Positions 4,975 through 27,415 of a stretch of 37,860 bases of DNA are shown in pieces. The position numbers and the translations under genes were made by a program. Every line of letters begins with the position of its first letter. Positions within the stretch are counted from its first letter, which is position 1. The notes beneath the pieces were generated by a model. That model worked only from the letters and a program-made list of their open reading frames with translations. It was not told the origin of the DNA and ran no database searches. Origin of the DNA: Oceanobacillus luteolus (GTDB lineage Bacteria > Bacillota > Bacilli > Bacillales > Amphibacillaceae); the NCBI RefSeq assembly GCF_023715655.1, contig NZ_JAMBON010000033.1:1-37860 (forward strand), written 5' to 3'.

Positions 4975-5100
4975 TTTCTTTTCCTGAATCGCTAGAATTA
5001 AATCTGACAGGGGAAGATAAGCAGTATTTCTTTTCCCGAAACACTTGGATTATAGTAGATATTATTTAAGTCTGATGAGGTAAGGCACCTGATCCGAAAC
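4975..5100. repeat. Degenerate family-2 52-bp repeat between ypmR and metY
   Basis: Within the gene-free stretch 4773-5171, TTCCTGAATCGCTAGAA begins at 4981 and TTCCCGAA begins at 5033, exactly 52 bases apart. The 52 bases between align by eye at about 70% with the tandem unit at 23352-23670 (TTCCCGRATGGGCTGGAA, then TAAATC, then GGGAARATAA). A still weaker copy may start near 4939. The rest of 4773-4970 shows no gene and no clear signal. Confidence 0.55.
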
Positions 5101-7087: not shown

Positions 7088-7205
7088 CTCTTATCTTCCA
7101 GATCTGGTCGATCTGTAGGATTTAGCACCATTAAAAGTAAGTCGTGCTTACTTCAAGGTTGCCGGGCTTCATCGGGCCTAGTCCCTCCGCCGCTCTTGAT
7201 AAGAG
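7088..7205 (-). promoter_or_regulatory. SAM-I (S-box) riboswitch aptamer
   Basis: Read on the minus strand, this matches the SAM-I core. P1 forms between CTCTTATC (7205-7198) and GATAAGAG (7095-7088). The first side is followed by AAGAGCGGCGGAGGGACT, GGCCCGATGAAGCCCGGCAACC (shown in two overlapping conserved blocks) and, before P1 closes, AATGGTGCTAAATCC. The next gene is metY, a classical S-box target. High SAM should cause early termination at 7035-7063. Confidence 0.97.
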
Positions 7206-9684: not shown

Positions 9685-9691
9685 AACGCCG

Positions 9692-9731
9692 AACATCTTA
9701 TCCATGGGGATAAGATGTTTTTTCTTTTTTA
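9692..9731 (+). terminator. Intrinsic terminator after the gamma-lyase gene
   Basis: A perfect 12-bp stem (AACATCTTATCC with GGATAAGATGTT, loop ATGG) is followed by TTTTCTTTTTT. It begins 8 bases after the stop. Confidence 0.95.
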
Positions 9732-9783: not shown

Positions 9784-10301
9784 ATGACGTGGAAGTGCTT
9801 CTATTGTATATTTTGAACTCGTATTTCTTCGCTTTCTGACAAGAGGATGTTTCTATTGCACGTTTCTGGTTGAAATTTTTTCTTTTCCTGACAAGAGGAA
9901 GCTCCTATTGCACGTTTCAGTGTAAGATTCTTTCTCTTTCTGACAAGAGGATGTTTCTATTGCACGTTTCTGGTTGAAATTTTTTCTTTTCCTGACAAGA
10001 GGAAGCTCCTATTGCACGTTTCAGTGTAAGATTCTTTCTCTTTCTGACAAGAGGATGCCTCTATTGCACGTTTCTGGTTGAAATTTTTTCTTTTCCTGAC
10101 AAGAGGAAGCTCCTATTACACGTTTCCGGGTAAAATCCATCTCTTTCCTTACAAGAGAGCCTTTCTCTTGTTCGTTTTGAGCTAATATTTCTTTGCTTCC
10201 TGACAAGAGAACACTTCTATTGCACACTTTGAACTTAATTTTACTCTTCCAGACAAGATACTCCTCCATATTGATTTGCCTTTTTACGAAAGAAAGGCAT
10301 A
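9784..10301 (-). repeat. Family-1 tandem array, 52-bp period, about ten units
   Basis: The landmark CTGACAAGAG or a close variant starts at 9836, 9888, 9940, 9992, 10044, 10096, 10148 and 10200, always 52 bases apart, with degenerate units at 9784 and 10250. Inside the array, units at 9836/9940/10044 are nearly identical to each other, as are those at 9888/9992/10096, giving a 104-bp higher-order unit; outer copies are decayed. On the minus strand the conserved part reads GAAACGTGCAATAG, then about 8 variable bases, then CTCTTGTCAG; the rest of the unit varies more. The same family occurs in plus orientation at 26945-27415. Because 52 is not a multiple of 3, the array is unlikely to be coding. 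The gene-free stretch 9732-10753 holds this array, then a leader region. Confidence 0.92.
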
Positions 10302-10399
10302 ACTATTGTTATGAAGCGAATTCTAATGTCACGAGCACTTGAAAAAGGTTGTCCGTACTCCAAGAACTGTGAAATGGAGCTTTAGTCACGCTGGAAAAT

Positions 10400-10427
10400 T
10401 TATCTTAAAGTAGGATTATGCTATAGT
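10400..10427 (+). promoter_or_regulatory. Possible extended -10 promoter for the cls leader
   Basis: TGCTATAGT (10419-10427) is an extended -10 with TTATCT 16 bases upstream. If used, the cls transcript would carry a leader of about 320 bases. Another candidate -10 is TATAAT near 10471, without a clear -35. Weak call. Confidence 0.3.
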
Positions 10428-10554
10428 AATGGTAGATAATGGGGTGCGTGAAGACTTGTTTTGTGGGCGATATAATCACGAATGACCCAGCTTTTATAAA
10501 TATTTTTTATAACTTCGGCCAAGCGACTAGTAAATCAATTTTCTATACATATTC

Positions 10555-10720
10555 CAGGTTGCTTTGTGAGGAGTGATGTAACAAGACGAGCATTTACTAC
10601 AGCCAGACTTCCTCGGTCCCTTAACAAGATAAGCCATGAATTTCTTATCTGAAAGTGACGCAAGGAAAGTCTGGATGTTGTTAAACGGGAGCCTACGCTT
10701 TTATGCGGGGCCCATTTTTT
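10555..10720 (+). ncRNA. Structured leader before cardiolipin synthase, unassigned
   Basis: Three helical elements follow each other. First, TGCTTTGT (10560-10567) pairs with ACAA (10581-10584) and AGCA (10589-10592) around a purine-rich loop. Second, CCAGACTTCCT (10603-10613) pairs with AGGAAAGTCTGG (10663-10674, one bulged A), enclosing a nested AGATAAG/CTTATCT hairpin (10627-10633, 10644-10650) and two unpaired strands. Third, a GC-rich hairpin (10687-10713) runs into ATTTTTT, terminator-like, some 35 bases before the gene. This is the layout of an aptamer plus expression platform. I could not match it to SAM, TPP, FMN, lysine, cobalamin, c-di-GMP, c-di-AMP, Mg, Mn or T-box cores. A 29-codon ORF without a good ribosome site starts at 10636. 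Confidence 0.45.
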
Positions 10721-10753
10721 ACTGAAATTTGAATGATGAAGAGGGCGACAAGG

Positions 10754-12190
10754 ATGACTTTAACTACGATCTTATTAAGTATTATCTTGATAGTAAACAT
10801 AATTCTTGGAATTTCCATTGTCTTTTTAGAGAGAAAAAATGCCTCTTCGACTTGGGCATGGTTGATGGTTTTGTTATTCGTTCCAATCGCCGGGTTCTTT
10901 CTCTACTTAATATTCGGTAAACCGATCAGCAATGGTCGAATATTTGTATGGGATACGAAAAGCCGATTAGGTTTAAAAGCAGCTGTCCAAGGTCAATTGC
11001 GGGAAATTGAAGATGACAAACTCGAATACAGTGATGAGGATATGAAGCGGTATCAGAGTTTGATCTACCTGAACTTAAGGACGGATAATTCGCTATATTC
11101 CCAAAATAACGATGTCGATATTCTTCTCGACGGGAAAGAGAAATTTGATCGACTGCTGCAGGATATGCGACGGGCCAAAGATCATATTCATTTGATTTAT
11201 TATATTGTCCGGAATGATGAACTGGGGACGAAGCTTGCTGATGTGTTGATCAAGAAGGCGAATGAAGGGGTGACTGTTCGTTTTCTGGTTGATGCGATGG
11301 GCTCGAGACGGCTAGGAAAAAAATATAAAAAGCGTCTCCGAGCAGCAGGCGTGCAAATTGAGGAATTTTTCCCAGCTAAGGTCATTAATTTTAAAATCAA
11401 TTATCGTAACCACCGAAAGCTTGCCATTATTGATGGAAAAGTTGGGTATATTGGTGGCTTTAATATCGGTGACGAATATTTGGGTAAAGATAAAAAGTTC
11501 GGTTACTGGCGGGATACTCATCTGAGAGTGAAAGGTTCTGCGGTCGAAAGTATGCAGACAAGGTTTATCCTCGATTGGAATCAGGCTTCTAAAGAAGAGA
11601 TTCTGTACGAAGACCGATACTATCAATCGGAAAGAGCGGGGAATGCTGGAATGCAGATTGTTTCCAGTGGACCGGATCAACAATTAGAGCAAATCAAAAA
11701 CGGTTATATTAAAATGATCATGGAAGCGAAAGAGTCCATTTATATTCAGACCCCTTACTTCATCCCGGATGAAAGTGTGCGGGATGCCTTGCAGATTGCT
11801 GCATTATCTGGTGTGGATGTGAAGGTGATGATTCCAAATAAACCGGATCACCCATTTGTCTACTGGGCAACACTATCTCATAGTGGGGACTTATTGCAAG
11901 CGGGCGGGGAAGTATATATTTACCAAAACGGCTTTCTACATGCAAAAACGCTCATCGTTGACGGGAAGATTTCCACAGTTGGAACTGCGAACATTGATAT
12001 GCGGAGCTTCCAACTCAATTTTGAAGTGAATGCTTTTATATATGATAAAGAAATTACGCAAGAGCTCTTACAAGCGTTTAATGATGATATTCGCCGTTCT
12101 ACGCAAATGACGAAAAAATTATACGAAAAACGTTCCATCGGAATTCGTATTAAAGAATCTGTATCTAGACTACTATCACCAGTTTTATAA
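10754..12190 (+). CDS. cls: Cardiolipin synthase (ClsA type)
   Basis: A 478-residue membrane phospholipase-D-fold enzyme that joins two phosphatidylglycerols to cardiolipin and glycerol. Two N-terminal membrane segments (about residues 3-24 and 34-54, with ERKNASSTWAWLMVLLF typical of the Firmicutes enzyme) are followed by two PLDc domains, each with an HKD motif: NHRKLAIIDGKVGYIGGFN near residue 220 and LHAKTLIVDGKISTVGTAN near residue 395. The start ATG 10754 has AGAGGG at 8 bases and matches the usual N-terminus; the ATGATG at 10733 has no ribosome site. The gene ends 10 bases before the thioesterase gene, so the two form an operon. The leader upstream is structured and may control expression. 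Confidence 0.93.
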   Translation: MTLTTILLSIILIVNIILGISIVFLERKNASSTWAWLMVLLFVPIAGFFLYLIFGKPISNGRIFVWDTKSRLGLKAAVQGQLREIEDDKLEYSDEDMKRYQSLIYLNLRTDNSLYSQNNDVDILLDGKEKFDRLLQDMRRAKDHIHLIYYIVRNDELGTKLADVLIKKANEGVTVRFLVDAMGSRRLGKKYKKRLRAAGVQIEEFFPAKVINFKINYRNHRKLAIIDGKVGYIGGFNIGDEYLGKDKKFGYWRDTHLRVKGSAVESMQTRFILDWNQASKEEILYEDRYYQSERAGNAGMQIVSSGPDQQLEQIKNGYIKMIMEAKESIYIQTPYFIPDESVRDALQIAALSGVDVKVMIPNKPDHPFVYWATLSHSGDLLQAGGEVYIYQNGFLHAKTLIVDGKISTVGTANIDMRSFQLNFEVNAFIYDKEITQELLQAFNDDIRRSTQMTKKLYEKRSIGIRIKESVSRLLSPVL

Positions 12191-12200
12191 GGAGGACATT

Positions 12201-12719
12201 ATGAAAGCAAAACCTTGTTCTGATTCACTAGCAATTAAAACGACCCATGTTCAGCCGCCGGATACGAACTTCCACAACACATTATTTGGTGGAAAGTTAC
12301 TCGCCCATATTGATGACTTGGCTGCAATCGCGGCGATCAAGCATTGCCGGAATCCCGTCGTTACCGCTTCGATTGATTCGGTGGATTTTCTCACCCCAGT
12401 GAGGGCGGGCGATGCAATTTTAATTGAAGCCTTTGTTACGTGGACAAGAAATACATCCATGGAGGTTTTTGTAAGAGTCATTACGGAAAACCTTGTGACG
12501 GAGGAGAAGAAGGTTTGTAATACTGCTTTTCTTACCTTTGTAGCAATCGATGAAAATGGCAAACCGACACCGGTTCCACCGGTTTATCCAGAAACGGATT
12601 ATGAAAAATCACTTCATGAATCTGCACCAGAGCGTGCTGAACAACGTGATTCCCGACGGAAGAAATCAAAAAACTTTGCAAAGGAAATCGGTGCAGATTA
12701 TATTTGGGACAGAAGATAG
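12201..12719 (+). CDS. YkhA-like hotdog acyl-CoA thioesterase
   Basis: A 172-residue cytoplasmic protein of the BACH/YkhA group of hotdog-fold acyl-CoA hydrolases. NTLFGGKLLAHIDDLAAIAA carries the conserved Asn and Asp of the helix that lines the active site, and TASIDSVDFLTPVRAGD and the following strands complete one hotdog unit (about residues 10-125). The C-terminal 45 residues are charged and probably disordered. Ribosome site AAGGAGG is ideal. It follows cls by 10 bases and is followed by a terminator, so cls and this gene form a small lipid-related operon; the thioesterase could adjust acyl-CoA pools for membrane synthesis, which is inference. Confidence 0.88.
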   Translation: MKAKPCSDSLAIKTTHVQPPDTNFHNTLFGGKLLAHIDDLAAIAAIKHCRNPVVTASIDSVDFLTPVRAGDAILIEAFVTWTRNTSMEVFVRVITENLVTEEKKVCNTAFLTFVAIDENGKPTPVPPVYPETDYEKSLHESAPERAEQRDSRRKKSKNFAKEIGADYIWDRR

Positions 12720-12744
12720 CACTTGTTTCAATGGAATAACATTC

Positions 12745-12780
12745 AAGGGGGACGCAAAATTACTTGCGTTCCTTTTTTTT
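12745..12780 (+). terminator. Intrinsic terminator of the cls operon
   Basis: AAGGGGGACGCAA pairs with TTGCGTTCCTTT (loop of 6), followed by a run of T to 12780. It lies 26 bases after the thioesterase stop. Confidence 0.92.
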
Positions 12781-12857
12781 AACAATATGAAACACATAGA
12801 TGTGCTTACTTCCCGAAAAATTCATCCTTTCGTCTATCTGTTAGCTGTTTTCCACCC

Positions 12858-12886
12858 TTGCAATCTACTATGAAAACGCTTATAAT
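12858..12886 (+). promoter_or_regulatory. Sigma-A promoter of the hut operon
   Basis: TTGCAA (12858-12863), 17-base spacer, TATAAT (12881-12886). Transcription should start near 12893, giving a leader of about 165 bases before hutH. A cre-like site overlaps the spacer and -10. Confidence 0.82.
12871..12884 (+). promoter_or_regulatory. cre-like site over the hut promoter
   Basis: TGAAAACGCTTATA matches TGWNANCGNTNWCA except at position 13 (T for C). Its place across the -10 box would let CcpA block RNA polymerase. Catabolite repression of hut is established in B. subtilis, which supports the call. Confidence 0.65.
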
Positions 12887-12940
12887 GAATATAATAAATA
12901 TTCTAAAATTATTAGCAACTCCACCAAACGAGGTGTTCCT

Positions 12941-13003
12941 ATGATGCTCTGGCAATCAACATCTATCCAACCCATACGAGGAGGCTATGGTTTCAAACCA
13001 TAG
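12941..13003 (+). CDS. Possible 20-residue hut leader peptide
   Basis: ATG 12941 is preceded by GAGGTG at 5-7 bases. The ORF reads MMLWQSTSIQ then PIRGGYGFKP and stops at TAG 13001-13003. The stop lies in the 3' arm of the terminator hairpin 12979-13009, so a translating ribosome would open that hairpin. There are no His codons, so this is not a classical amino-acid attenuator. No homologue is known to me, and it could be a chance ORF; the good ribosome site and its position argue for a role. Confidence 0.35.
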   Translation: MMLWQSTSIQPIRGGYGFKP

Positions 13004-13013
13004 CCTCCTTTTC
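12979..13013 (+). terminator. Terminator/attenuator in the hutH leader
   Basis: A very strong hairpin: 15 bases (12979-12993) complementary to 12995-13009, practically a 13-bp stem with loop TTCAA, followed by TTTTCGTTTG. It lies between the hut promoter and hutH, about 45 bases before the start. In B. subtilis a terminator in the hut leader is overcome by HutP with histidine. No hutP gene is present here. Confidence 0.8.
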
Positions 13014-13057
13014 GTTTGTCTCTTTAGCATAGTGAAGTAATGCCGTGGAGGTGTAGA

Positions 13058-14571
13058 ATGATTCGGTTAACAGGGAATACATTAACACTAGACGATGTTC
13101 ATCAAGTTGTTTTCTCGGGGCAAAAGGTGCAGCTTGACCTACAGGCGAAAGTGAATATAGAGAAAAACAGACAAACAGTGGAAACATTTCTCAAAGAAAA
13201 GAAAATCATGTACGGCATTAATACCGGCTTTGGAAAGCTGAGTAATATTTTAATCGATGAAGTTGATCTGGAACAGCTGCAAATCAATTTGCTCCATTCC
13301 CATGCTTGTGGAGTCGGGGAGCCTTTTTCTGAAGAAGTCAGTCGGGCGATGTTATTGCTTCGGGCAAATGCATTGGCTTGCGGCTTTTCAGGAGTACGGC
13401 CTGCTTTAATTGAGAGAATGCTAGATTTATTAAATGCCGGAATTCATCCAGTTATCCCGGCGCAGGGCTCTCTCGGTGCAAGCGGCGACTTGGCTCCGTT
13501 AGCTCATTTAGCTCTGCCGTTGATTGGGAAAGGGGAGGTTTTCTACCAGGGAAAACGTATAGCCTCACAAAACGCGTTACAACAAGCGAACCTTCAACCG
13601 ATTAAATTGAAGCCTAAAGAAGGACTCGCACTCATCAACGGAACGCAGGCGATGACAGCTGTTGGTGTCCTCTCGTATTTGGAAATGGAAAAAATGCTGT
13701 ATCAAAGTGAGCTCATTGCCGCCTTGAGCTTTGAAGGATTACAAGGGATCATCGATGCATTTGAACCTGCAATTCATCACGTGCGGGGGCACAAAGAGCA
13801 AATCGAAGTTGCTGCTAGGATGTGCAAGATTCTTCAAGGAAGCAAATTGACTACAAAACAAGCCGAACTACGAGTACAGGATGCATACTCTCTTCGTTGC
13901 ATTCCCCAAGTGTTAGGGGCATGTTGGCAAACACTGCATTATGCGAAGGAAAAGTTGGAGATTGAAATCAATGCAGTAACCGACAACCCGATTATTTTTA
14001 CGGATGAGAAGAAGATTTTATCTGGTGGAAACTTTCATGGAGAACCGATAGCATTTGCAATGGATTTTTTGAAGCTTGGAATCGCTGAAGTAGCTAACAT
14101 TTCCGAACGGCGGATTGAGCGGCTCGTCAACCCACAATTAAATGACTTGCCGGCTTTCTTAAGTCCGAACCCAGGTCTCCAGTCAGGAGCGATGATTTTA
14201 CAGTACAGTGCGGCATCCCTGGTATCCGAAAATAAGACATTGGCTCATCCTGCAAGTGTTGATTCCATTCCGTCGTCCGCCAATCAGGAGGATCATGTGA
14301 GCATGGGAACGACTGCAGCAAGACATGCCTACATGATGATCCAAAATACGAGGAACGTCCTAGCCATCGAGTTAATCTGTGCACTCCAAGCATGTGAGTA
14401 CCGTGGTGTCGCCAATATGGCGAAGACAACGAGAAAGTTTTATAAAAGAGCGAGGAACATCATTCCGAGCATGATAAAAGATCGCATCTTTGCTGAAGAT
14501 ATTGCCCGCGCTGCACATTGGTTGAAGGAAGCTGATGATAGTTATGTATCTGAAAGGTGGGAGAATACAAA

Positions 14572-14575
<4 letters not shown>
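13058..14575 (+). CDS. hutH: Histidine ammonia-lyase
   Basis: A 505-residue cytoplasmic enzyme that deaminates L-histidine to trans-urocanate, first step of the Hut pathway. It has [11 protein letters not shown] (active-site Tyr52), the Ala-Ser-Gly triad that forms the MIO cofactor (A141-S142-G143 in [12 protein letters not shown]), and later conserved blocks such as [22 protein letters not shown] and [15 protein letters not shown]. Length is normal for the family. Start ATG 13058 has GTGGAGGTG at good spacing; an in-frame ATG at 13040 lacks one. It is the first gene of hutHUIG and its stop overlaps the hutU start by 4 bases (ATGA). A promoter with a cre-like site and a leader terminator lie upstream. 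Confidence 0.97.
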
Positions 14576-18415
<3,840 letters not shown>

Positions 18416-18416
18416 T

Positions 18417-18446
18417 AAAAAAGACAGGTGAGTGCACCTGTCTTTT
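18417..18446. terminator. Bidirectional terminator between hutG and the HxlR gene
   Basis: AAAAGACAGGTG and CACCTGTCTTTT (12-bp perfect stem, loop AGTG) lie between two converging genes. T-runs border it on both strands (TTTTG on plus, TTTTTTATTATG on minus), so it should serve both. Confidence 0.9.
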
Positions 18447-18447
18447 G

Positions 18448-18795
18448 TTACTTAACTTTATCCGCTTGCTCTGCTTCTACTTCTTCTTTTGTAACATGTT
18501 TATCTGCCCAACTTTGAATTTCGCGAATGACCGGCTCCAACGCACGGCCTTTATCTGAAAGTGAGTATTCAATCCGAACCGGGAACTCGGAGTATATTTT
18601 ACGTTCGACGATACCTTCTTTTTCGAGCATCTTCAAGCGATCAGAGAGCAATCTGCCACTAATAGGTAAATCAGCTTCCATTTCTGAGAAACGCTTCGTC
18701 CCTTTTAGTAATTCGAATAAAATCAAGCCTACCCAACGTGTGCTTAGTAATCCCATAGCCTTTTCAAAACGTGGACATAAGATTTCCTCCATCAT
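18448..18795 (-). CDS. HxlR/DUF24-family regulator with N-terminal redox Cys
   Basis: A 115-residue winged-helix repressor of the MarR/DUF24 group. The N-terminus MMEEILCPRFEKAMGLLSTRW aligns by eye with YodB and CatR of B. subtilis, whose single N-terminal Cys senses quinones, diamide and hypochlorite; here it is C7. The C-terminal cysteines of YodB are missing, so it would be a one-Cys type working by S-thiolation or inter-subunit linkage. The recognition helix lies around SGRLLSDRLKMLEKEGIVER. The site GAGGTGAT is a near-perfect anti-16S match; ATG 18795 (spacing 5) or ATG 18792 (spacing 8) is the likely start rather than GTG 18801. Palindromes typical of operators lie just upstream. Target genes are unknown; the neighbouring aminopeptidase is transcribed divergently. 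Confidence 0.88.
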   Translation of the reverse strand: MMEEILCPRFEKAMGLLSTRWVGLILFELLKGTKRFSEMEADLPISGRLLSDRLKMLEKEGIVERKIYSEFPVRIEYSLSDKGRALEPVIREIQSWADKHVTKEEVEAEQADKVK

Positions 18796-18851
18796 GATCA
18801 CCTCACTCTATTTAAATCAAATGAAAAGGAATAACAGTAATTACAAAAAGT

Positions 18852-18914
18852 AACTATTTATAGTTTAACATAAAATTACCCTTCTAGTAAACAGTGTAAC
18901 CACTATTTATCAGT
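18852..18914. promoter_or_regulatory. Two operator-like palindromes upstream of the HxlR gene
   Basis: AACTATTTATAGTT (18852-18865) is a palindrome with perfect 6-base arms. A related degenerate copy, CACTATTTATCAGTT, starts at 18901, about 48 bases away on the same face. They lie 57-120 bases upstream of the DUF24 regulator, where an autoregulatory operator is expected. The short symmetric ACTAT/ATAGT form resembles boxes of this family. The rest of 18915-19113 holds no gene. Confidence 0.5.
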
Positions 18915-19113
18915 TCTAAATGCCTCGGTTAAGTAAGTTTTTCTTCTTTTTAAAAAAGTAAATAGTTGGTGAATTCATCGTTTTGTGAAATAATAGGGCT
19001 TAGACGGTGTATCTTTCAGTAAAATTCCTATTCTGAATAGATGGAGGAGAGTACCCTGATTCACTAAAGTGTAATTTCGTATGATAGAAATTGATCCAAT
19101 TGGAGGTTAAAAG

Positions 19114-20358
19114 ATGGCGACAATACAATTACAAGAAAAATATGCAGAACTAGCTTTACGTACAGGTGTCAATTTACAAAAAGGCCAGGCCTTGATGATT
19201 AATGCTCCGCTTGAAGGTGCAGACTTCACAAAAATTATAGCAAGAAAAGCATATGAACTAGGTGCAAAAGACGTTCATATCAACTGGGTGGACGATGAGC
19301 TGACATTATTAAGATACCAGCACGCTCCAGATGAAGTGATCGGTTCCTTCCCGGAATGGCGGGTCAAACTTCATGATGAGTTTGCGGAAGATGGAGCGGC
19401 AATCCTTCATATTCGTTCGACCAACCCTGATTTATTAAAGGATATTGACCCTGCACGTGTTGCAATGGCTAACAAAGCTGCAGCAGAAGCAATGGTGAAT
19501 TTCCGCCAGTATACGATGAATGACCGAATTCCTTGGTCCATTATTTCTATTCCATCGAAGGATTGGGCACAAAAGATTTTCCCTGATAAATCGCCAGAAG
19601 ATGCAGTGGCGAGCTTATGGGAAGCTATCTTGAAAATTGTCCGTGTAGACCAAGAAGACCCAGTTGCGGCATGGAAAGAACATAATGCAACATTGAAGAC
19701 AGCTCGTGAAGTATTGAATGATAGAAACTATAAAAAATTAATATTAAAAGCGCCTGGAACCGACCTGGAATTGGAGCTTCCTGAGGGGCATATTTGGAAG
19801 GGCGGTTCAGCCTTTGCCGAAACTGGGGTAGAATTTAACCCGAACATTCCTACCGAAGAAGTATTCTCCTTGCCGCATAAGTACGGCGTAAATGGGACAG
19901 TATCAAGCACAAAACCACTTAATTATGGTGGCAGCTTAATCGACAACTTCCAGTTGACGTTCAAAGATGGCGCAGTAGTGGACTTTAAAGCAGAAGTCGG
20001 TGAAGAAGTGCTGAAACATTTACTTGATTCCGATGAAGGTGCCCGCCGTTTAGGAGAAATCGCGCTTGTTCCAGACGAGTCGCCAGTTTCCCAATCCGGC
20101 TTGATTTTCTATAACACGCTGTTTGATGAAAATGCTTCGGTGCACATCGCTCTTGGTAAAGCTTATCCAACCAACTTGGAAGGCGGATCCAGCATGTCAG
20201 AAGAAGAACTGGATAAACATGGTGTGAATGACAGCCTCATCCACGTGGACTTCATGATTGGATCTGACAAACTTGATATCGATGGTGTGAAGCAAGATGG
20301 TACGACAGAGCCTGTATTCCGTAATGGGACTTGGGCACTGAACATTAAAGGTGAATAA
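19114..20358 (+). CDS. ampS: M29-family aminopeptidase (AmpS/aminopeptidase T type)
   Basis: A 414-residue cytoplasmic metallo-aminopeptidase of clan MQ that removes N-terminal residues from peptides with a two-metal centre. The catalytic C-terminal half shows the usual ligands: Glu in NIPTEEVF, Glu in ALVPDESPVS, His and Tyr in SVHIALGKAYP, and His and Asp in LIHVDFMIGSDKLDIDG. The N-terminal half (about 1-190) is the Rossmann-like domain of the family. Length is normal. ATG 19114 follows TTGGAGGTTAAAAG. Its promoter may be TTGGTG-18-ATAATA near 18967. It stands alone between the DUF24 regulator (divergent) and a terminator. Confidence 0.92.
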   Translation: MATIQLQEKYAELALRTGVNLQKGQALMINAPLEGADFTKIIARKAYELGAKDVHINWVDDELTLLRYQHAPDEVIGSFPEWRVKLHDEFAEDGAAILHIRSTNPDLLKDIDPARVAMANKAAAEAMVNFRQYTMNDRIPWSIISIPSKDWAQKIFPDKSPEDAVASLWEAILKIVRVDQEDPVAAWKEHNATLKTAREVLNDRNYKKLILKAPGTDLELELPEGHIWKGGSAFAETGVEFNPNIPTEEVFSLPHKYGVNGTVSSTKPLNYGGSLIDNFQLTFKDGAVVDFKAEVGEEVLKHLLDSDEGARRLGEIALVPDESPVSQSGLIFYNTLFDENASVHIALGKAYPTNLEGGSSMSEEELDKHGVNDSLIHVDFMIGSDKLDIDGVKQDGTTEPVFRNGTWALNIKGE

Positions 20359-20365
20359 TAATTTA

Positions 20366-20402
20366 AAAATCCACAAGCTGTTATGCTTGTGGATTTTTTT
20401 CT
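20366..20402. terminator. Bidirectional terminator between ampS and the PH-domain gene
   Basis: AAAATCCACAAGC pairs with GCTTGTGGATTTT over 13 bases (loop TGTTAT). Runs of T follow on both strands. It ends ampS (plus) and the recQ-PH operon (minus). Confidence 0.92.
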
Positions 20403-20420
20403 TTTGGATAGGGTGTCATC

Positions 20421-20804
20421 CTAGTCGATGATATACTCATTAATCAAGTGGTAAGTGCGCAACAATAGTTCGTCCATATTTTTGTCCTTCATAAATTTCA
20501 GTTCAATGTTGATACCACCTGACAGGGTCAAATTGATTTCCGAATCAAGATCTAATCTGCCTGCCGTCTCGATGGAATAAGTTGAGATATTTTTATATGG
20601 AATAGAGTAATATTCCACTTTTTTCCCTGTCAATCCTTGCTTATCAGCAATCAGAATCCTTTTGTCTGTAAAGACGGCAATATCTCTTATCGTCTTCACG
20701 CAAAATACAACCTGTTCTTTGCCTGATAAAAATTTTTCCATCTTTTCATTAAGCGGAACTTCATGATAAAAAGTAAATACTTTTTTTGGTGTAAGATCAG
20801 TCAA
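20421..20804 (-). CDS. Bacterial PH-domain protein (bPH_1 type)
   Basis: A 127-residue protein that is essentially one bacterial pleckstrin-homology-like domain: strands such as VKTIRDIAVFTDKRILIAD, KKVEYYSIPYKNISTYSIE and SEINLTLSGGINIELKFM, then a C-terminal helix. No membrane segment or signal peptide. Members are small cytoplasmic proteins of unknown role. The start is TTG 20804, with GGAGG at 7 bases. It begins 15 bases after the recQ stop, so it is co-transcribed with recQ; a functional link is not evident. Confidence 0.8.
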   Translation of the reverse strand: MTDLTPKKVFTFYHEVPLNEKMEKFLSGKEQVVFCVKTIRDIAVFTDKRILIADKQGLTGKKVEYYSIPYKNISTYSIETAGRLDLDSEINLTLSGGINIELKFMKDKNMDELLLRTYHLINEYIID

Positions 20805-20819
20805 TTCAACCCCTCCAGT

Positions 20820-22967
20820 TTACATCATTCCATTTTTCACTAAAACGGCTTTGATCATTGTATAACTATAATCTTCTGGCAAAGCTTTCTTCAATGGCTT
20901 TAGTTTATCTTCATCCAACTCTTCTCGCATTGCGAGTACTTCCGCTTCTTCCTCGGCGTTGAAGAATAGATTCCAATTCATTTCATGTCCTTCTTTATAA
21001 GCTTTGAAAAGGTGATTCTCAATCGTCATCGCTGAAAAGTCACGAGCTTCAGCAATTTCCTTTATCGTTTTGCCTTCTTGGAAAAGCTTATAGCTTACAA
21101 GGTGGCTCGGCCCATCGTCTTCCGTTCTTTTCTTTCTTGCTACTGGTTTAGCGTTCCCAAAGATAGGTATTCGCTTCGGTACTTTTGGATTGCGTTCACG
21201 CCAGTCTTGTATCAATGCCAAGAAGTCTTCACCATATTGCTCGTATTTCACTTCACCGATTCCTTTGATGTCCAACATTTCTTCTTTCGTCTGTGGGAAG
21301 TAGCGGCTAAGCTCTTTCAATGTGGCATCAGAGAATAATACATAAGGCGGCACTTGTTTCTCATCGGCAATTTCCTTACGCAGTGCACGCAGCTCGGAGA
21401 AAAGATCTTCATGATAATCCGCATCTTCCGTCGTTGGAATAGGCGCCGTAAACATTTCCACTTTGCGCTCACCTTTTAAAACAGGTACGGAATGCTGATT
21501 CAACCTGATGATCGGAAAACGTCCTTCTTCAATGGCGAGTAAATTTTCGGCAATTAAAAAGTGGATCATCTCCGTTATTTCCTTTTCCGTATAACGGGAA
21601 AGCAGTCCATAGGTGGAAAGCTTTTGAAGTCCGAATTGGATAATCTTCTTATCTCTCGATCCTTTTAATACTTTTGCTGTCAGTGTCACACCGTAGCGTT
21701 CTTCCATCCGCTTCACGCATGACAGGATCATTTGTGCCTCTTCGGTTATATCCACCTTTTCCTGAAGTTCGGTACAATTACTGCAACGGTCACAGGTCGT
21801 CTTCGTAACCGTATCATCGAAGTACTCGAGAATATGATTTGCGAGACAACTATGGGTGTGACAGTAGTTGATCATGGCTTGCAGTTTACGGTATTCATTT
21901 TGTTTTGCTTGATCATCCATTTGCGATTGTTCAATTAAAAATTTCTGCAGCTGGATATCTTGCGGGGAGAACAGCAGTATACAATCACTTGGCTCACCAT
22001 CACGTCCGGCTCTTCCAGCTTCTTGATAGTAGGACTCAATGTTCATCGGCATCGCATAATGCAGAACGAAACGAACGTTTGATTTATCTATCCCCATCCC
22101 GAAGGCGTTTGTTGCAATCATGACATTCACTTCGTCGTGAAGGAAGGCGGCTTGAGCTTCTTTACGTTTCATTTCGGAAAGCCCGGCATGATACTTCGCA
22201 ACGGAAAAACCACGTGCTTTCACCAATTCATAGAGACTATCCGCCTGTTTCCTCGTAGCTGTATAAATAATTCCTGCTTCATCCCGATGTTCGGTCAAAA
22301 AGTTCCGGATATACGTCATTTTGTCTTTACCTTTAACAACGTGGAAAGAAAGGTTTTCCCTGGCAAAGCCGGTATTGACCGTATGTTGGTCATCGACTGC
22401 GAGTAAGGATTGGATATCTGCAATAACCTCTTCTGTTGCGGTCGCTGTCAACGCAATGAAAACAGGGATATTCCCGAATTCTTTCAGACGAGGAACAATC
22501 GAACGGTAACTTGGTCTGAAATCATGTCCCCATTGGGAAATACAATGTGCCTCATCAAAGGCGACGAGGGAGATATTGATCCGCTTCATCAAGTTCGTAA
22601 AACGGAAAGATTCGAACCGCTCTGGCGCAACATAGACAAATTTATAGCGCCCACTAGCAATCTCCTGCATCCGCAAGTCTTGTTCTTCATTGGATAGGGA
22701 ACTATTTACAAAAGTCGCAGGAATTCCAAGGGACTGAAGCCCATCCACTTGATCCTTCATTAAGGAGATGAGAGGAGAGATGATAATTGCAGTGCCTTGC
22801 ATGGATAATCCGGGGATTTGATAGATAAGAGATTTACCTCCACCCGTAGGCATGACAGCGAGCGTGTTATGTAAGTTTAAAATATGCGAAATCGCTTCTT
22901 GCTGCCCAGGGCGAAATGCTTCATAACCAAAGTAACTTTTTAAAATGTTTTTTTCCTTTACTAGCAT
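20820..22967 (-). CDS. recQ: ATP-dependent DNA helicase RecQ
   Basis: A 715-residue 3'-5' DNA helicase for recombinational repair. Motif I is TGGGKS (41-46), motif II DEAH (138-141) followed by the aromatic-rich loop CISQWGHDFRPSY, motif VI lies around QEAGRAGRDGEPS. The RQC part has a Zn site of four Cys (CHTHSCLANHILEYF and CDRCSNC), then a winged helix. An HRDC domain occupies about 520-600 (LFSELRALRKEIADE). A further 100 residues resemble a C-terminal helix-turn-helix (HTH_40-like) module, KLFQEGKTIKEIAEARDFSAMTIENHL. This long form is common in Bacillales. Start ATG 22967 has AAGGAG at 8 bases. A PH-domain gene follows in the same operon. Confidence 0.95.
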   Translation of the reverse strand: MLVKEKNILKSYFGYEAFRPGQQEAISHILNLHNTLAVMPTGGGKSLIYQIPGLSMQGTAIIISPLISLMKDQVDGLQSLGIPATFVNSSLSNEEQDLRMQEIASGRYKFVYVAPERFESFRFTNLMKRINISLVAFDEAHCISQWGHDFRPSYRSIVPRLKEFGNIPVFIALTATATEEVIADIQSLLAVDDQHTVNTGFARENLSFHVVKGKDKMTYIRNFLTEHRDEAGIIYTATRKQADSLYELVKARGFSVAKYHAGLSEMKRKEAQAAFLHDEVNVMIATNAFGMGIDKSNVRFVLHYAMPMNIESYYQEAGRAGRDGEPSDCILLFSPQDIQLQKFLIEQSQMDDQAKQNEYRKLQAMINYCHTHSCLANHILEYFDDTVTKTTCDRCSNCTELQEKVDITEEAQMILSCVKRMEERYGVTLTAKVLKGSRDKKIIQFGLQKLSTYGLLSRYTEKEITEMIHFLIAENLLAIEEGRFPIIRLNQHSVPVLKGERKVEMFTAPIPTTEDADYHEDLFSELRALRKEIADEKQVPPYVLFSDATLKELSRYFPQTKEEMLDIKGIGEVKYEQYGEDFLALIQDWRERNPKVPKRIPIFGNAKPVARKKRTEDDGPSHLVSYKLFQEGKTIKEIAEARDFSAMTIENHLFKAYKEGHEMNWNLFFNAEEEAEVLAMREELDEDKLKPLKKALPEDYSYTMIKAVLVKNGMM

Positions 22968-23026
22968 CCTTTACGCTCCTTCCATTATGAATAATCCTAC
23001 CATATTTTTGATAGGTTGTAACGATA

Positions 23027-23056
23027 GAAAAAGAGTGAAGCATTTGCCTCACTCTT
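23027..23056 (-). terminator. Intrinsic terminator after the coiled-coil gene
   Basis: On the minus strand AAGAGTGAGGC pairs with CTTCACTCTT (one bulged base, short loop), followed by TTTC. It overlaps the stop codon at 23049-23051 and lies 60 bases before recQ. Confidence 0.75.
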
Positions 23057-23234
23057 CGCCCAGTTCCTCAAGCTGTTTCCGTACTTCCGCAATCTCTCCT
23101 TCTAATCGGATCAATTGCTCTTCTGCTGAAGAAACCCTGCCTTTAACATATTCCAATTTATCCATATCACCTTGAATTCGAACATAATCCGATTTCAACT
23201 CATCTAATTTAGCCAAAAGTTTATCACGGTTCAT
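23049..23234 (-). CDS. Small coiled-coil protein, function unknown
   Basis: A 61-residue, highly charged protein with heptad spacing of Leu/Val/Ile over almost its full length (KLLAKLDELKSDYVRIQGD, EEQLIRLEGEIAEVRKQLEEL), so probably a coiled-coil dimer. No Cys, no membrane segment. Start ATG 23234 has GGGGGAGAAAGTGA upstream, and a terminator follows, so it is a real independent gene. I do not recognise the family. Its 5' flank is the family-2 tandem array (23345-23700). Confidence 0.7.
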   Translation of the reverse strand: MNRDKLLAKLDELKSDYVRIQGDMDKLEYVKGRVSSAEEQLIRLEGEIAEVRKQLEELGEE

Positions 23235-23344
23235 TCACTTTCTCCCCCTTTTAAAAGCCCTACCAACTATTGTAATACGGAACTCGCTTAATTCCTAGGG
23301 AAAAAGGTTAGCCTTTTGAATGGCGGTTTAGAGTGTGGCGCTGA

Positions 23345-23692
23345 AGTTATTTTCCCGTATGGGGTGAAAGTAAATTGTATCGGGAAAATAACTGTTGTTT
23401 ACTTTCCCGGATGGGCTGGAAATAAATCACTTCGGGAAAATAACTGTTGTTTACTTTCCCGGATGGGCTGGAAATAAATCACTTCGGGAAGATAACTGTT
23501 GTTTACTTTCCCGAATGGGCTGGAAATAAATCACTTCGGGAAGATAACTGTTGTTTATTTTCCCGAATGGGCTGGAAGTAATTCGCTTTGGGAGAATAAC
23601 AGGTGTTTACTTTCCCAAATGGGGTGAAAATAAATCACCATGGGAAAGCATCTGGTGCTTATTTTCCCATATGGGATGACAGTAAATCCATC
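23345..23692. repeat. Family-2 tandem array, 52-bp period, about seven units
   Basis: TTCCC landmarks start at 23352, 23404, 23456, 23508, 23560, 23612 and 23664: seven copies exactly 52 bases apart. The four central units are almost identical. In parts, a unit reads TTCCCGGATGGGCTGGAA, ATAAATCACTTCGGGAA, RATAACTGTTGTTTACT. TTCGGGAA and the next TTCCCGAA are perfect complements, so each unit can form an 8-bp hairpin with an 18-base loop. The sequence is unrelated to family 1, but the period is the same. A decayed copy occurs at 4981-5095. The array fills the space between the coiled-coil gene and the AI-2E permease gene. Confidence 0.92.
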
Positions 23693-23708
23693 AGGAAGAT
23701 ACGTGTCA

Positions 23709-24809
23709 TTAAAACAACGCATCTTCCTTATTTCTTTTAGAGTCCACATAAGTTTCATAGAAATGAACAATAATCGTCCGTACCACCGCGTAGAATGGAA
23801 CTGCGAAAAGGATTCCGAGAAAACCAGCAATGCTTCCCGCGGCAAGAATCACTGTAATGATCGTGAGCGGGTGAAGGTTCAGTGCTTGGCCCATCACATT
23901 TGGTGAGATTAAGTTACTTTCAATCTGCTGAGCGACGATCATAATAATCGATATCCATATCAGATTCCACGGATCTTGGATACCTCCAATAATAAGTGCT
24001 GGTGTAACAGCGATGAATGGTCCAAGGTAAGGAATGACATTCGTCACCATTCCAAATAACGCTAGAGCTAATGCATAATCTAGTCTGATAATAGAATATC
24101 CAATAAATAAAAGTATCCCGACAAAGAAGCTGACAATCAGCTGCCCTTGGATAAAGGCAGTCAGCACGTTATTTATTTTCATTAAAAGGCTGCGGATGTT
24201 GGCAGCTTTTTTTGGTTTGAAGAATTTGGTGATGAATGGTATTAATTTCTCACCATCTTTCAGCATGAAGAACAGGAAGAATGGGATTAACACCATTCCA
24301 GCTGCAATGCTGAGGACCTGTCCAATTAATCCGCCGAGAAAAGCAAAGATATAGTTGATGATCTCCTCAATATGTGAAGGGATATTATTCACAAAGTCGT
24401 TGATTGTTCCGACGACTTGATCGGGGATATAAACATAATTCGTTTCCCAATATTGTATGAACTCTTGGATTACCTTTACCATGGCGGGAATTCCGTTCAT
24501 GATATTTGTTGTTTGCTCACGTAGTATCGGCCAAATATAGATGATAAATAACGACGCGGCGATTAAGATGATAATGAAGACAAGAATGATCGCGATGATC
24601 CGATGAATTTTAAACCGTTCAAAAAAACGCATAAGCGGCCTAGTCAGATAGTAAAGGATACCTGCACCAATAATTGGAAATGCGACAGCTCCAATCAATT
24701 GGAAGACAGGGATAAATATAAAATTAGTGGCTGAGACTAATAAAATCAATAGAAATATAAGTATTAGCCCAATTAATATTTCAAAAAATCGTTTGTTTTT
24801 CAATTGCAT
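23709..24809 (-). CDS. AI-2E family permease
   Basis: A 366-residue integral membrane protein of the AI-2E (formerly UPF0118) family. An N-terminal pair of membrane segments (about residues 8-50), a third at about 65-90, an extracytoplasmic helical stretch (about 90-150) and a C-terminal block of four or five segments containing NVIPYLGPFIAVTPALIIGG, the family signature, and NLHPLTIITVILAAGSIAGFLGILFAVP. Members have been linked to autoinducer export or Na/H exchange; substrate cannot be decided here. ATG 24809 has GGAGAG upstream; an in-frame GTG 24827 is an extension without a site. A hairpin (23693-23728) around the stop may be a weak terminator. Divergent from pgcA. Confidence 0.88.
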   Translation of the reverse strand: MQLKNKRFFEILIGLILIFLLILLVSATNFIFIPVFQLIGAVAFPIIGAGILYYLTRPLMRFFERFKIHRIIAIILVFIIILIAASLFIIYIWPILREQTTNIMNGIPAMVKVIQEFIQYWETNYVYIPDQVVGTINDFVNNIPSHIEEIINYIFAFLGGLIGQVLSIAAGMVLIPFFLFFMLKDGEKLIPFITKFFKPKKAANIRSLLMKINNVLTAFIQGQLIVSFFVGILLFIGYSIIRLDYALALALFGMVTNVIPYLGPFIAVTPALIIGGIQDPWNLIWISIIMIVAQQIESNLISPNVMGQALNLHPLTIITVILAAGSIAGFLGILFAVPFYAVVRTIIVHFYETYVDSKRNKEDALF

Positions 24810-24954
24810 CTCTACTCTCCGTTCCACACAATCGATTGGTGGTTTTATTTTTATTATAATCGATTATAATAGTATATGCTGTTATTATTATTAACCGAAA
24901 ATGAAAAATTAATTCAAGTTTAATAGAATAAAAGATAATGTCATGATAGTATTT

Positions 24955-25125
24955 TTATATACATACGAATAGTGGAAGCGCTCATTCGAAGAAAATCCGG
25001 TCGTCGTGTTGAATTCTGGTCGACGGAGCCCCGCACTTCGCAAATCTGCACGGACAAACAGTCCATTCATAGAGCCTGATTTTGCCGAAGTTGGACGTGG
25101 CTTTTACTTATATACATACTAATAG
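24955..25125 (+). repeat. 18-bp direct repeats bracketing a structured GC-rich segment before pgcA
   Basis: TTATATACATACGAATAG (24955-24972) and TTATATACATACTAATAG (25108-25125) differ at one base and are 153 bases apart. The second copy leads directly into the pgcA ribosome site. The DNA between is richer in GC than its flanks. It can form CGTCG/CGACG (25002-25006, 25021-25025) and a nested element: AGCC (25027-25030)/GGCT (25099-25102), CACTTCG (25034-25040)/CGAAGTTG (25086-25093) and GGAC (25052-25055)/GTCC (25061-25064), then TTTTAC. It has no ORF. It may be a leader RNA or a small inserted element. Confidence 0.5.
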
Positions 25126-25135
25126 GGGGAACGAA

Positions 25136-26875
25136 ATGGCTAAAAATTGGGAAGCAGTATACGAGAAATGGCTTAATTTTGAAAACCTGGATGTCAGTCT
25201 GAAAGCTGATTTGGAGGCTATTAAGTCAGATCCGAAAAAACTGGAAGATGCGTTTTATCAAGAGCTGACATTCGGAACAGGTGGTATCCGTGGAGTACTT
25301 GGACCTGGAACAAACCGTATGAATATTTATACCGTACGTAAAGCGGTGAATGGCCTAGCCAAGCATTTGTTGGAACATGTAGTGAACGCAAAACAGCGTG
25401 GAGTGGCAATTGCTTACGATTCACGATATATGTCACAAGAATTTGCGATTGAAGCGGCCAAAGTTCTTGGTTCATACGGTATTCGTGCTTCTGTGTTTTC
25501 CTCACTACGGCCGACTCCAGTGCTTTCCTATGCGGTACGCTACTTGAGTGCAGCAGCTGGAATCATGATTACGGCCAGTCATAATCCGCCGGAGTACAAT
25601 GGGTTGAAGGTCTATAACGAAGAAGGTGGACAAATCCTTTTGGAGGAAGCAGAGCAAATTACTGCGGCCATTCAGGCAACAGGTGATGAACTGCTCGTTC
25701 CTGTGCGAGATCAAAAAGAGCTTGAAGATGAACAACTTCTTCGATGGATTGGTGAAGAAGTAGATCGTGCTTATCTCGAACATTTACAAGGCATAACAAA
25801 AATGGAACCGTCCGTACTTGAAGAAGAAAAAGATCTAAAGATTGTTTACACACCACTTCATGGAACAGGAACAAATCTTGTATCAAGAGGCTTTGCACAA
25901 TTGAATTTCCCTCACGTAACGCTTGTTGAAGAACAAACTGTAGCTGACCCGGAATTTTCAACGGTAGAATCACCGAACCCGGAAGAACATCAGGCATTCA
26001 AGCTTGCAATCGAATATGGGGAAAAAGTTGATGCCGATATTTTACTTGCGACAGACCCGGATGCAGACCGTCTTGGCGCTGCAGTGAAAAATAAAGATGG
26101 GGAATATGTCGTCCTTACTGGAAACCAACTCGGTTCCTTATTATTGGATTACATTCTTTCCCATAGTGATATGAACGTTTACCGCAATGCCCGAATGATC
26201 AAAACTGTAGTTACAACTGAGTTCGGCCGTGCAATTGCCGATTCTTATGGAGTAGAAACAATTGAAACGTTAACTGGTTTTAAATATATTGCAGAAAAAA
26301 TCGCCAACTTCCAATCAACAGGTGAAACTTTCATGTTCGGCTATGAAGAAAGCTATGGCTACCTCGCGAGTGGATTCACGCGTGATAAAGATGCTGTTCA
26401 AGCGTCCATGCTCGCAGCAGAAATGGCTTATTATTGGAAGAGTCAAGGGAAATCGGTACTTGATGCTTTAGAAACTTTATTTGAAAAACATGGATATTTC
26501 CTTGAAGGATTAACTTCTTTAAAACTTGAAGGAAAAGAAGGTTCGGAGCAAATTGCGTATATCATGGAAGAAATCCGTGAACGTCCAATGAAGGAAATTG
26601 CAGGCATGAAAGTGGTGACGGTCGAGAATTATGTCACCAGCGAACGTACGGATGTTGCAACAGGTGATGTTGAAATAATCAACTTACCAAAAGAAAACAT
26701 GATGAAATTTATCCTCGAGGATCAGGCTTGGGTTTGTTTCCGTCCATCCGGCACAGAACCCAAGATCAAATATTATTACGGTGTTTGCGGTAACAGCAAT
26801 GAAGATAGCGCAGAAAAATTACAATCAATCAAAGAGGCATTAGATGCAGTGATTGCCGGAATTTTAGAGAAATAA
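25136..26875 (+). CDS. pgcA: Phosphoglucomutase/phosphomannomutase (PgcA type)
   Basis: A 579-residue alpha-D-phosphohexomutase that interconverts glucose 6-phosphate and glucose 1-phosphate, feeding UDP-glucose, glucolipid and teichoic acid synthesis. The catalytic Ser is S148 in TASHNPPEYNGLKVY, the Mg loop is DPDADRLG, the sugar-binding loop is GYEESYGYL and the phosphate-binding loop is RPSGTEPK. The N-terminal FGTGGIRGVLGPGTNRMN is also typical. I chose ATG 25136 with GGGGGAACGAA upstream; the in-frame start at 25082 would translate the repeat-bordered leader. Length matches PgcA of Bacillus. It is monocistronic with a terminator. Confidence 0.95.
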   Translation: MAKNWEAVYEKWLNFENLDVSLKADLEAIKSDPKKLEDAFYQELTFGTGGIRGVLGPGTNRMNIYTVRKAVNGLAKHLLEHVVNAKQRGVAIAYDSRYMSQEFAIEAAKVLGSYGIRASVFSSLRPTPVLSYAVRYLSAAAGIMITASHNPPEYNGLKVYNEEGGQILLEEAEQITAAIQATGDELLVPVRDQKELEDEQLLRWIGEEVDRAYLEHLQGITKMEPSVLEEEKDLKIVYTPLHGTGTNLVSRGFAQLNFPHVTLVEEQTVADPEFSTVESPNPEEHQAFKLAIEYGEKVDADILLATDPDADRLGAAVKNKDGEYVVLTGNQLGSLLLDYILSHSDMNVYRNARMIKTVVTTEFGRAIADSYGVETIETLTGFKYIAEKIANFQSTGETFMFGYEESYGYLASGFTRDKDAVQASMLAAEMAYYWKSQGKSVLDALETLFEKHGYFLEGLTSLKLEGKEGSEQIAYIMEEIRERPMKEIAGMKVVTVENYVTSERTDVATGDVEIINLPKENMMKFILEDQAWVCFRPSGTEPKIKYYYGVCGNSNEDSAEKLQSIKEALDAVIAGILEK

Positions 26876-26894
26876 TATAGTGAGTTTTAGTCTC

Positions 26895-26936
26895 ATCCTT
26901 CATGTCTAGGTTTCCTTGGGCATGGAGGATTTTTTT
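26895..26936 (+). terminator. Intrinsic terminator after pgcA
   Basis: ATCCTTCATG (26895-26904) pairs with CATGGAGGAT (26921-26930, one G-T), followed by TTTTTT. Confidence 0.88.
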
Positions 26937-26944
26937 AATAAAGT

Positions 26945-27415
26945 TGTTCATGTTGAGAATGATAGAAAGCTGAATTTGCACAGTAACAGTGGTTGTCTTG
27001 TCGCGAGAGAGGGGATTTAAAGCTTATAATGAGCAATAGAAAGTTTCTCTTGTCACGAAAGATGGGAAACTAAACTCGAAATGTACGATAGAAGCGTACT
27101 CTTGTCATGAAAGACGGGAAAATAAGTTAGAAAAGTACAATAGAATATTCTCTTGTCATGAAAGACGGGAAACCAATCTAGAAACGTACCATAGAAGCGT
27201 TCTCTTGTCACGAAAGGCAGGAAACCAAGCCCGAAACGTACTATAGAGCGTCTCTCTTGTCACGAAAGACAGTAAACTAACTTCGAAACATACCATAGAA
27301 CACTGCTCTCGTCACAAAAGACGGAAAACCAAGCTGAAAACATACAATAGAAACTGTCTCATGTCACGAACATAAGTAATCAGTCTCCAAAAGCACAATA
27401 ACAATTCACAATGGC
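26945..27415 (+). repeat. Family-1 tandem array, 52-bp period, about nine units
   Basis: The landmark CTTGTCA (or one-base variants) starts at 26997, 27049, 27101, 27152, 27204, 27256, 27308 and 27360: seven intervals of 52 bases, one of 51. In parts, a unit reads GAAACGTACNATAGAAGCG, TTCTCTTGTCACGAAAGAC, GGGAAACCAAGCTC. The first and second parts match the minus strand of the array at 9784-10301, so the two loci carry the same family in opposite orientation. Copies here are more evenly diverged, with no clear 104-bp order. The array lies between the pgcA terminator and the promoter of the Mn riboswitch; 27416-27490 shows nothing else. Confidence 0.9.

Follow-up and report, generated by a model that had tools for sequence, protein, structure and literature searches.

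Intergenic tandem arrays with a common 52-bp period in Oceanobacillus luteolus and some related Amphibacillaceae

Arrays of the window and their surroundings

The window, which is the whole stretch of DNA analysed here (37,860 bp), is contig C133 of the 4.0-Mb genome of O. luteolus, which is assembled in 206 contigs. At the phosphoglucomutase-like gene of the window the nearest named relatives are Oceanobacillus indicireducens and O. alkalisoli (82-83% protein identity). Three tandem arrays and one decayed remnant are present (Table 1). The first array is flanked by a methionine gamma-lyase gene and a cardiolipin synthase gene; an 82-aa open reading frame (ORF) on the minus strand overlaps it. 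The array at 26945 lies between the phosphoglucomutase-like gene (scoring below curated cut-offs) and a gene for a YkoY-family membrane protein, and the array at 23345 ends 8 bp from the stop of a minus-strand gene for an AI-2E family transporter.

Table 1. Repeat arrays of the window and motifs of the four sequence families of the genome
Feature	Position in window	Strand	Units, core or motif
F1 array	9784..10301	+	about 9-10 units, each 52 bp; core TTCNTGACAAGAGANNNNCTCTATTG, linker of free sequence
F1 array, opposite orientation	26945..27415	-	about 8-9 units
F2 array	23345..23701	+	about 7 units; core on minus strand GGGAAAGTAA-N7-TTATTTTCCC
F2-like decayed two-unit remnant	4979..5095	+	one 52-bp interval (4979/5031)
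F1 family			motif TGACAAGAG..CTCTATTG
F3 family			motif TTCGTGCAC..; linked to F1
F2 family			motif TTTCCCGAA..TTCGGGAAAATAA
F4 family			motif CACGTGAG..; loosely held together

The preliminary description of this DNA had reported a spacing of 52 bp in nearly every interval of two unrelated repeat families. The spacing was recovered in all arrays, with the earlier counts (7/7, 7/8, 6/6 and 1/1) off by one interval: landmarks are 52 bp apart in 7/8 intervals at 9784-10301 (the last being 50 bp), in 6/7 at 26945-27415 (one being 51 bp), in 6/6 at 23345-23700 and in the single interval of the remnant. A lag scan of the window flagged 645 positions at lag 52 and 20 at lag 51, with nothing at any other lag from 48 to 56, and Tandem Repeats Finder (TRF) agreed with the 52-bp period of the window arrays. 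A chance origin was rejected, as no position was flagged at any lag from 30 to 110 in 60 shuffles of the window (3-mer blocks). The arrays at 9784 and 26945 form a single family in reversed orientation (69% identity). The view that this family and the one at 23345 are unrelated stands at the sensitivity used, because their pair scores (8 and 9 for the window units, 5 to 14 genome-wide) fall within the range of shuffled units (95% point 11.5, 99% point 16).

The intergenic position described earlier was confirmed to the extent that no ORF of at least 100 aa overlaps any window array. For this reason, and because 52 is not divisible by three, a coding repeat was rejected. Two of the three arrays bear out the earlier statement that they follow terminators (terminator-like hairpins lie at 9691-9720 and at 26895-26930); for the array at 23345 no such hairpin was found within 23150-23800. 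At the Rfam gathering score no match was obtained at the arrays; the sole match in the window was a SAM riboswitch at 7088-7205.

Periods in the genome and in its relatives

The genome was sampled over 486 kb in stretches taken by contig number. A scan independent of TRF gave a period of 52 for 10/10 arrays whose period is not divisible by three, plus one array each of 39 and 42. Outside the window 12 loci were found with a TRF score of at least 80, nine of them with a base period of 52; of the other three, one was read as 38 (TRF also fits 52) and two were coding-like (39 and 42). One array of period 52 (L128) is covered to 82% by an ORF of at least 100 aa. Among 21 arrays with a unit consensus (from the sample and from search matches), picked under a filter of 50-54 bp, 19 had units of 52 bp and two of 51 bp; array C54a gave no unit consensus and was left out. 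The arrays of the genome fall into about four sequence families with one common pitch.

Arrays of 51-52 bp with sequences unlike those of the present genome occur in O. salinisoli, O. indicireducens, Lentibacillus, Aquibacillus and Gracilibacillus, and a second class of arrays in the relatives has a period of 20-21 bp. One sample of the relatives consisted of 80 homologous loci of 11-22 kb (1.67 Mb), picked by a gene and not by repeats. The periods not divisible by three were 20 (4 arrays), 40 (3), 41 (1) and 52 (10), and those divisible by three were 15 (1), 21 (8), 33 (3), 36 (1), 39 (1), 42 (8), 51 (5) and 60 (2). In 993 kb from 12 genomes picked for bearing arrays, the corresponding values were 40 (1), 41 (2), 52 (9), 71 (2) and 104 (1), and 21, 24, 36, 54, 81 and 99 (one each), 42 (3) and 51 (3). 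Arrays of 33, 36, 39 and some of 42 lie within open frames. Another 11 genomes (five of the genus and six of the order), sampled over 700 kb, yielded no array of 51-52 bp; their arrays had periods of 55, 70, 15, 21, 81 and 87 (one each) and 42 (2). Within O. indicireducens a family with GACCCCAATGTCCC has TRF periods of 32, 36 and 46.

Where arrays of this kind are present they show a strong preference for the pitch, but many of the sampled genomes have few or none of them. The sharing of one period by unrelated repeats extends well past the window, both to the 10/10 arrays of the genome sample and to the 52-bp arrays of the relatives. Neither a broad spread of periods nor homology between F1 and F2, the two outcomes that the preliminary description had named as counting against it, came out; the 52-bp rule is, however, not universal.

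Anatomy and strand polarity of the units

Regarding the F1 units of the genome, columns 1-15 and 20-26 are mostly conserved with a free loop between them; the linker (columns 33-52) has a pairwise identity of 0.1-0.4 and equal length, so that the unit total stays at 52 (seven groups were compared, representing six arrays, one of which was read on both strands). Arrays of O. salinisoli and of Lentibacillus have part of the linker in common, and in Aquibacillus salsiterrae GTCCGAAT-N9-ATTCGGAC was seen by eye in two arrays with unlike linkers. Whole-genome searches for the cores yielded 47 matches for F1, 54 in Lentibacillus and 243 in O. salinisoli, against 0, 2 and 0 for the respective backward-pattern controls. 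Gaps of less than 700 bp between neighbouring cores agreed with a multiple of 52 to within 1 bp in 35/35 cases for F1, 43/45 for Lentibacillus and 77/78 for O. salinisoli, the last from the 100 matches listed out of 243. An inverted repeat above the level of shuffled units (p<0.05) was present in 22 of 40 array consensuses, including that of the window F2 array; none was significant in the two F1 arrays of the window and 16 further consensuses of the 40 tested.

Relative to GC skew the core is found more often on the opposite strand, in 9/11 arrays of F1 and F3 (p 0.07), 8/9 of Lentibacillus (p 0.04) and 8/10 of O. salinisoli (p 0.11). Pooled over the three genomes, 25/30 arrays are opposite to the skew (two-sided p 3e-4, the families having been chosen after looking). 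The polarity is family-dependent, since F2 runs along the skew in 5/5 arrays and F4 in 5/8. Some skews were taken from 3 kb only or from elsewhere on the contig. The 9/11 count includes C120a; C140 was left out of the strand count because its assignment to F1 rested on a score without meaning (9), and the F1 clusters on C54, C98, C11, C184:159, C151 and C125 (skew unmeasured or weak) were uncounted. Of the 22 clusters listed for O. salinisoli, the 11 on C12, C15, C45, C56 and C67 (skew unmeasured) were also uncounted. C2 and C3 entered the count as a single cluster. The strand tendency relative to GC skew is a lead in which gene direction and replication direction are not separated.

Candidate explanations and known systems

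The unit length of bacterial tandem repeats is usually thought to differ by locus. As length is here kept across unlike sequences and several genera, a ruler is implied, which could be either the geometry of binding or a copying machine; to our knowledge neither kind of ruler has been described for a bacterial chromosome. The 52-bp intergenic arrays hint that something in the cell may read or build repeats by their length.

On the sequence evidence, the best reading is that spacing and not sequence is kept in putative phased binding arrays, and a candidate architectural or phased-binding role fits best. The arrays would be phased rows of putative sites, often dyad (inverted), for sequence-specific DNA-binding proteins, a tentative explanation to which we give somewhat less than an even chance. 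A protein dimer would bind each core, and neighbouring dimers would need to sit on the same face of the helix about five turns apart, so that the pitch would be selected; the 20-21 bp class would correspond to two turns. Selection would remove units of the wrong length, and sequence could turn over together with the protein. As arithmetic, the earlier equation of 52 bp with five turns of the helix (10.4 bp each) is sound, and it is only approximate for the 51-bp arrays and for the 20-21 bp class. Several observations are consistent with phased sites: families of different sequence have one period, the F1 core is conserved beside a linker free in sequence but not in length, about half of the consensuses contain an inverted repeat, arrays are gained or lost from one sister species to another, and in three genomes the core shows a strand tendency. 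The single length change in 14 hand-picked unit pairs, a partly circular test described below, also speaks for them. Against them, several families in one genome would need several proteins of one geometry, or one protein blind to sequence. Other periods also exist (51 in some families, 55, 70 and 71, and 32/36/46 in O. indicireducens), the 700 kb from 11 genomes lack 51-52 bp arrays, and the linkers of O. salinisoli and Lentibacillus show some conservation between arrays. A broader proposal, which is possible but doubtful, is that many Amphibacillaceae chromosomes carry a satellite-like system of dozens to hundreds of polar intergenic units, conserved only in pitch (about five turns, with a sister class of two turns) and read by putative fast-evolving proteins that would organise the chromosome or mark strand direction.

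The chief rival of phased binding is a copying mechanism that sets the length, and both predict the same maps. An enzyme would recognise the core, or a hairpin on single-stranded lagging DNA, and copy it together with a fixed neighbouring stretch, giving a period near 52 irrespective of the linker. Such a machine, which we consider unlikely on the whole, would explain the common core, the locus-specific linker, the constant period and the strand bias together. It also accords with the turnover of the arrays: gene order is common to the window, O. indicireducens and O. alkalisoli, and the arrays at 23345 and 26945 are absent from both relatives, so that arrays arise or vanish fast. (In O. indicireducens the slot of the 9784 array contains an assembly gap together with an unlike repeat, and the O. 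alkalisoli locus stops short of the slot.) However, the similarity between units of one genome ranges by degrees from near identity to hardly any, a pattern that resembles copies diverging over time more than fresh capture, and Aquibacillus sediminis has 51-bp and 52-bp arrays side by side.

Common descent by itself, in which one old 52-bp array spread and diverged and the period was inherited without selection, is improbable. It is favoured by the link between F1 and F3, by the weak sharing of F2 with O. indicireducens and by 48 of 1178 cross-genome unit pairs that score higher than the 99% point of the shuffled set, against 11.8 expected, but most cross-family and cross-genome pairs are at null level with length unchanged. 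F1 was searched for in 28 Oceanobacillus genomes including the present one (E<=0.001) and occurred in this genome alone (1/28); F2 was found in one of 50 named genomes (O. indicireducens, best E 0.004), and F4, among 6 genomes, in its own only. A point against descent alone comes from unit length: 14 within-family pairs with 148 substitutions showed one length change where a rough model expected about nine (chance of at most one, about 1e-5), the pairs being hand-picked and several of them sharing an array. The expectation was taken from noncoding gap:substitution ratios between the window and two sisters (53:430 and 76:523). Consensus units had been pre-filtered at 50-54 or 49-56 bp, which makes the pair test partly circular; of all 119 pairs listed, 14 differ in length. 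Because of the filter and the shared arrays, the unfiltered scan of periods is the safer evidence.

Somewhat more improbable still are mobile hairpins of the REP/REPIN kind, moved by a Y1 (RAYT-type) transposase and clustered in tandem. The strand bias would fit single-strand transposition. Y1_Tnp genes were found in 10/10 array-bearing genomes tested, and GTAG is present inside the core in 5/5 consensuses of O. salinisoli. According to PMC3733652, REP elements are extragenic, palindromic, present in many copies and able to cluster in tandem, which resembles the present units (extragenic, with a significant inverted repeat in 22 of 40 consensuses); spacers of REP dimers are there variable, mostly 20-100 bp, with GTAG or CGTC tags. 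The arrays differ from this in a fixed pitch of 51-52 bp across unlike cores, and the idea was rejected on spacing, which varies in REP elements, as 155/158 core gaps pooled over three genomes deviate by no more than 1 bp from a multiple of 52 (100 of the 243 O. salinisoli matches being used). Neither tag is common to any of the families F1-F4: GTAG occurs in 0/6 consensuses of F1, 1/5 of F3, 1/5 of F2 and 1/5 of F4 (31% of shuffled units), CGTC in 3/6, 0/5, 1/5 and 2/5, respectively, and GTAG in 0/6 of Lentibacillus. Two of the seven Y1 loci of the genome were read, with no array beside either; the long Y1 gene has none within the 1.9 kb read, and at the second locus (L008) the sole match was one of 24 bp to W1 (E 0.005). 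Genomes that showed no 52-bp array in the small sample taken have Y1 genes too. Transcribed RNA hairpins acting in 3' untranslated regions are very improbable. In their favour, G-U pairs improve the pairing of some F2 and F4 hairpins on one of the strands (by eye). Against them, F1 stands in both orientations between same-direction genes (the 9784 and 26945 arrays), F2 lies in divergent and convergent gaps (simple ORF calls), and terminator-like hairpins precede two of the window's three arrays.

Among other known systems, bacterial minisatellites (VNTR) are tandem and homogenised inside the array with diverged ends, and their period is normally locus-specific, whereas here it is constant between loci. 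Plasmid iterons and partition-site repeats are direct repeats in tandem, spaced by whole turns of the helix and bound on a single face; the present arrays differ from them in occupying many loci of one chromosome. Unlike CRISPR arrays, which have unique spacers, the arrays inspected unit by unit have linkers that repeat within the array. No report of 52-bp intergenic arrays in Bacillaceae was found among the open-licence papers listed, as judged by their titles and the opening lines of their abstracts. Regarding eukaryotic satellite DNA, sequence turns over between species and unit length (the nucleosomal length) is often held, according to PMC8122249. The arrays described here differ in being short, intergenic and scattered over a bacterial genome, with no known length-setting particle, and share with satellites the rule that length is kept and sequence is free.

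Interruption of the arrays

Two intergenic tandem arrays of about 52 bp period in the O. luteolus genome (on L005 and L007), each at a contig end, were seen by eye to be interrupted by the same sequence, which resembles an insertion-sequence terminus with a start codon after it; downstream of the L006 array, a stretch judged by eye to be somewhat like this sequence was found. Insertion sequences may use the arrays as landing sites.

Features located (L numbers, sequence stretches of this genome or its relatives, local coordinates)
Feature	Position	Strand	Remark
Array	L005:1531-1655		cut at end of contig C54
Array	L007:1580-1704		cut at end of contig C186
Array	L006:1812-1920		similar stretch follows
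Y1-type transposase gene	L279:475-1038		187 aa
20-21 bp arrays	L042, L055, L088, L038, L085 and others
SAM riboswitch	window 7088-7205	minus	upstream of gene scoring as O-acetylhomoserine sulfhydrylase

Y1-type transposase and short-unit arrays

The gene directly adjoining that of the Y1-type transposase is presumably ComM-like; an array was sought at this locus and none was found within the 1.9 kb read. A number of Amphibacillaceae also carry intergenic arrays of a second class, built of 20-21 bp units whose sequences differ by eye between genomes.

The block at 12714-18435

Window positions 12714-18435 form a 5.7-kb block; in the near relative O. indicireducens the genes that flank it are separated by about 0.4 kb. 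Because the block contains a urocanase gene and an amidohydrolase gene, its gene content suggests a histidine-use island.
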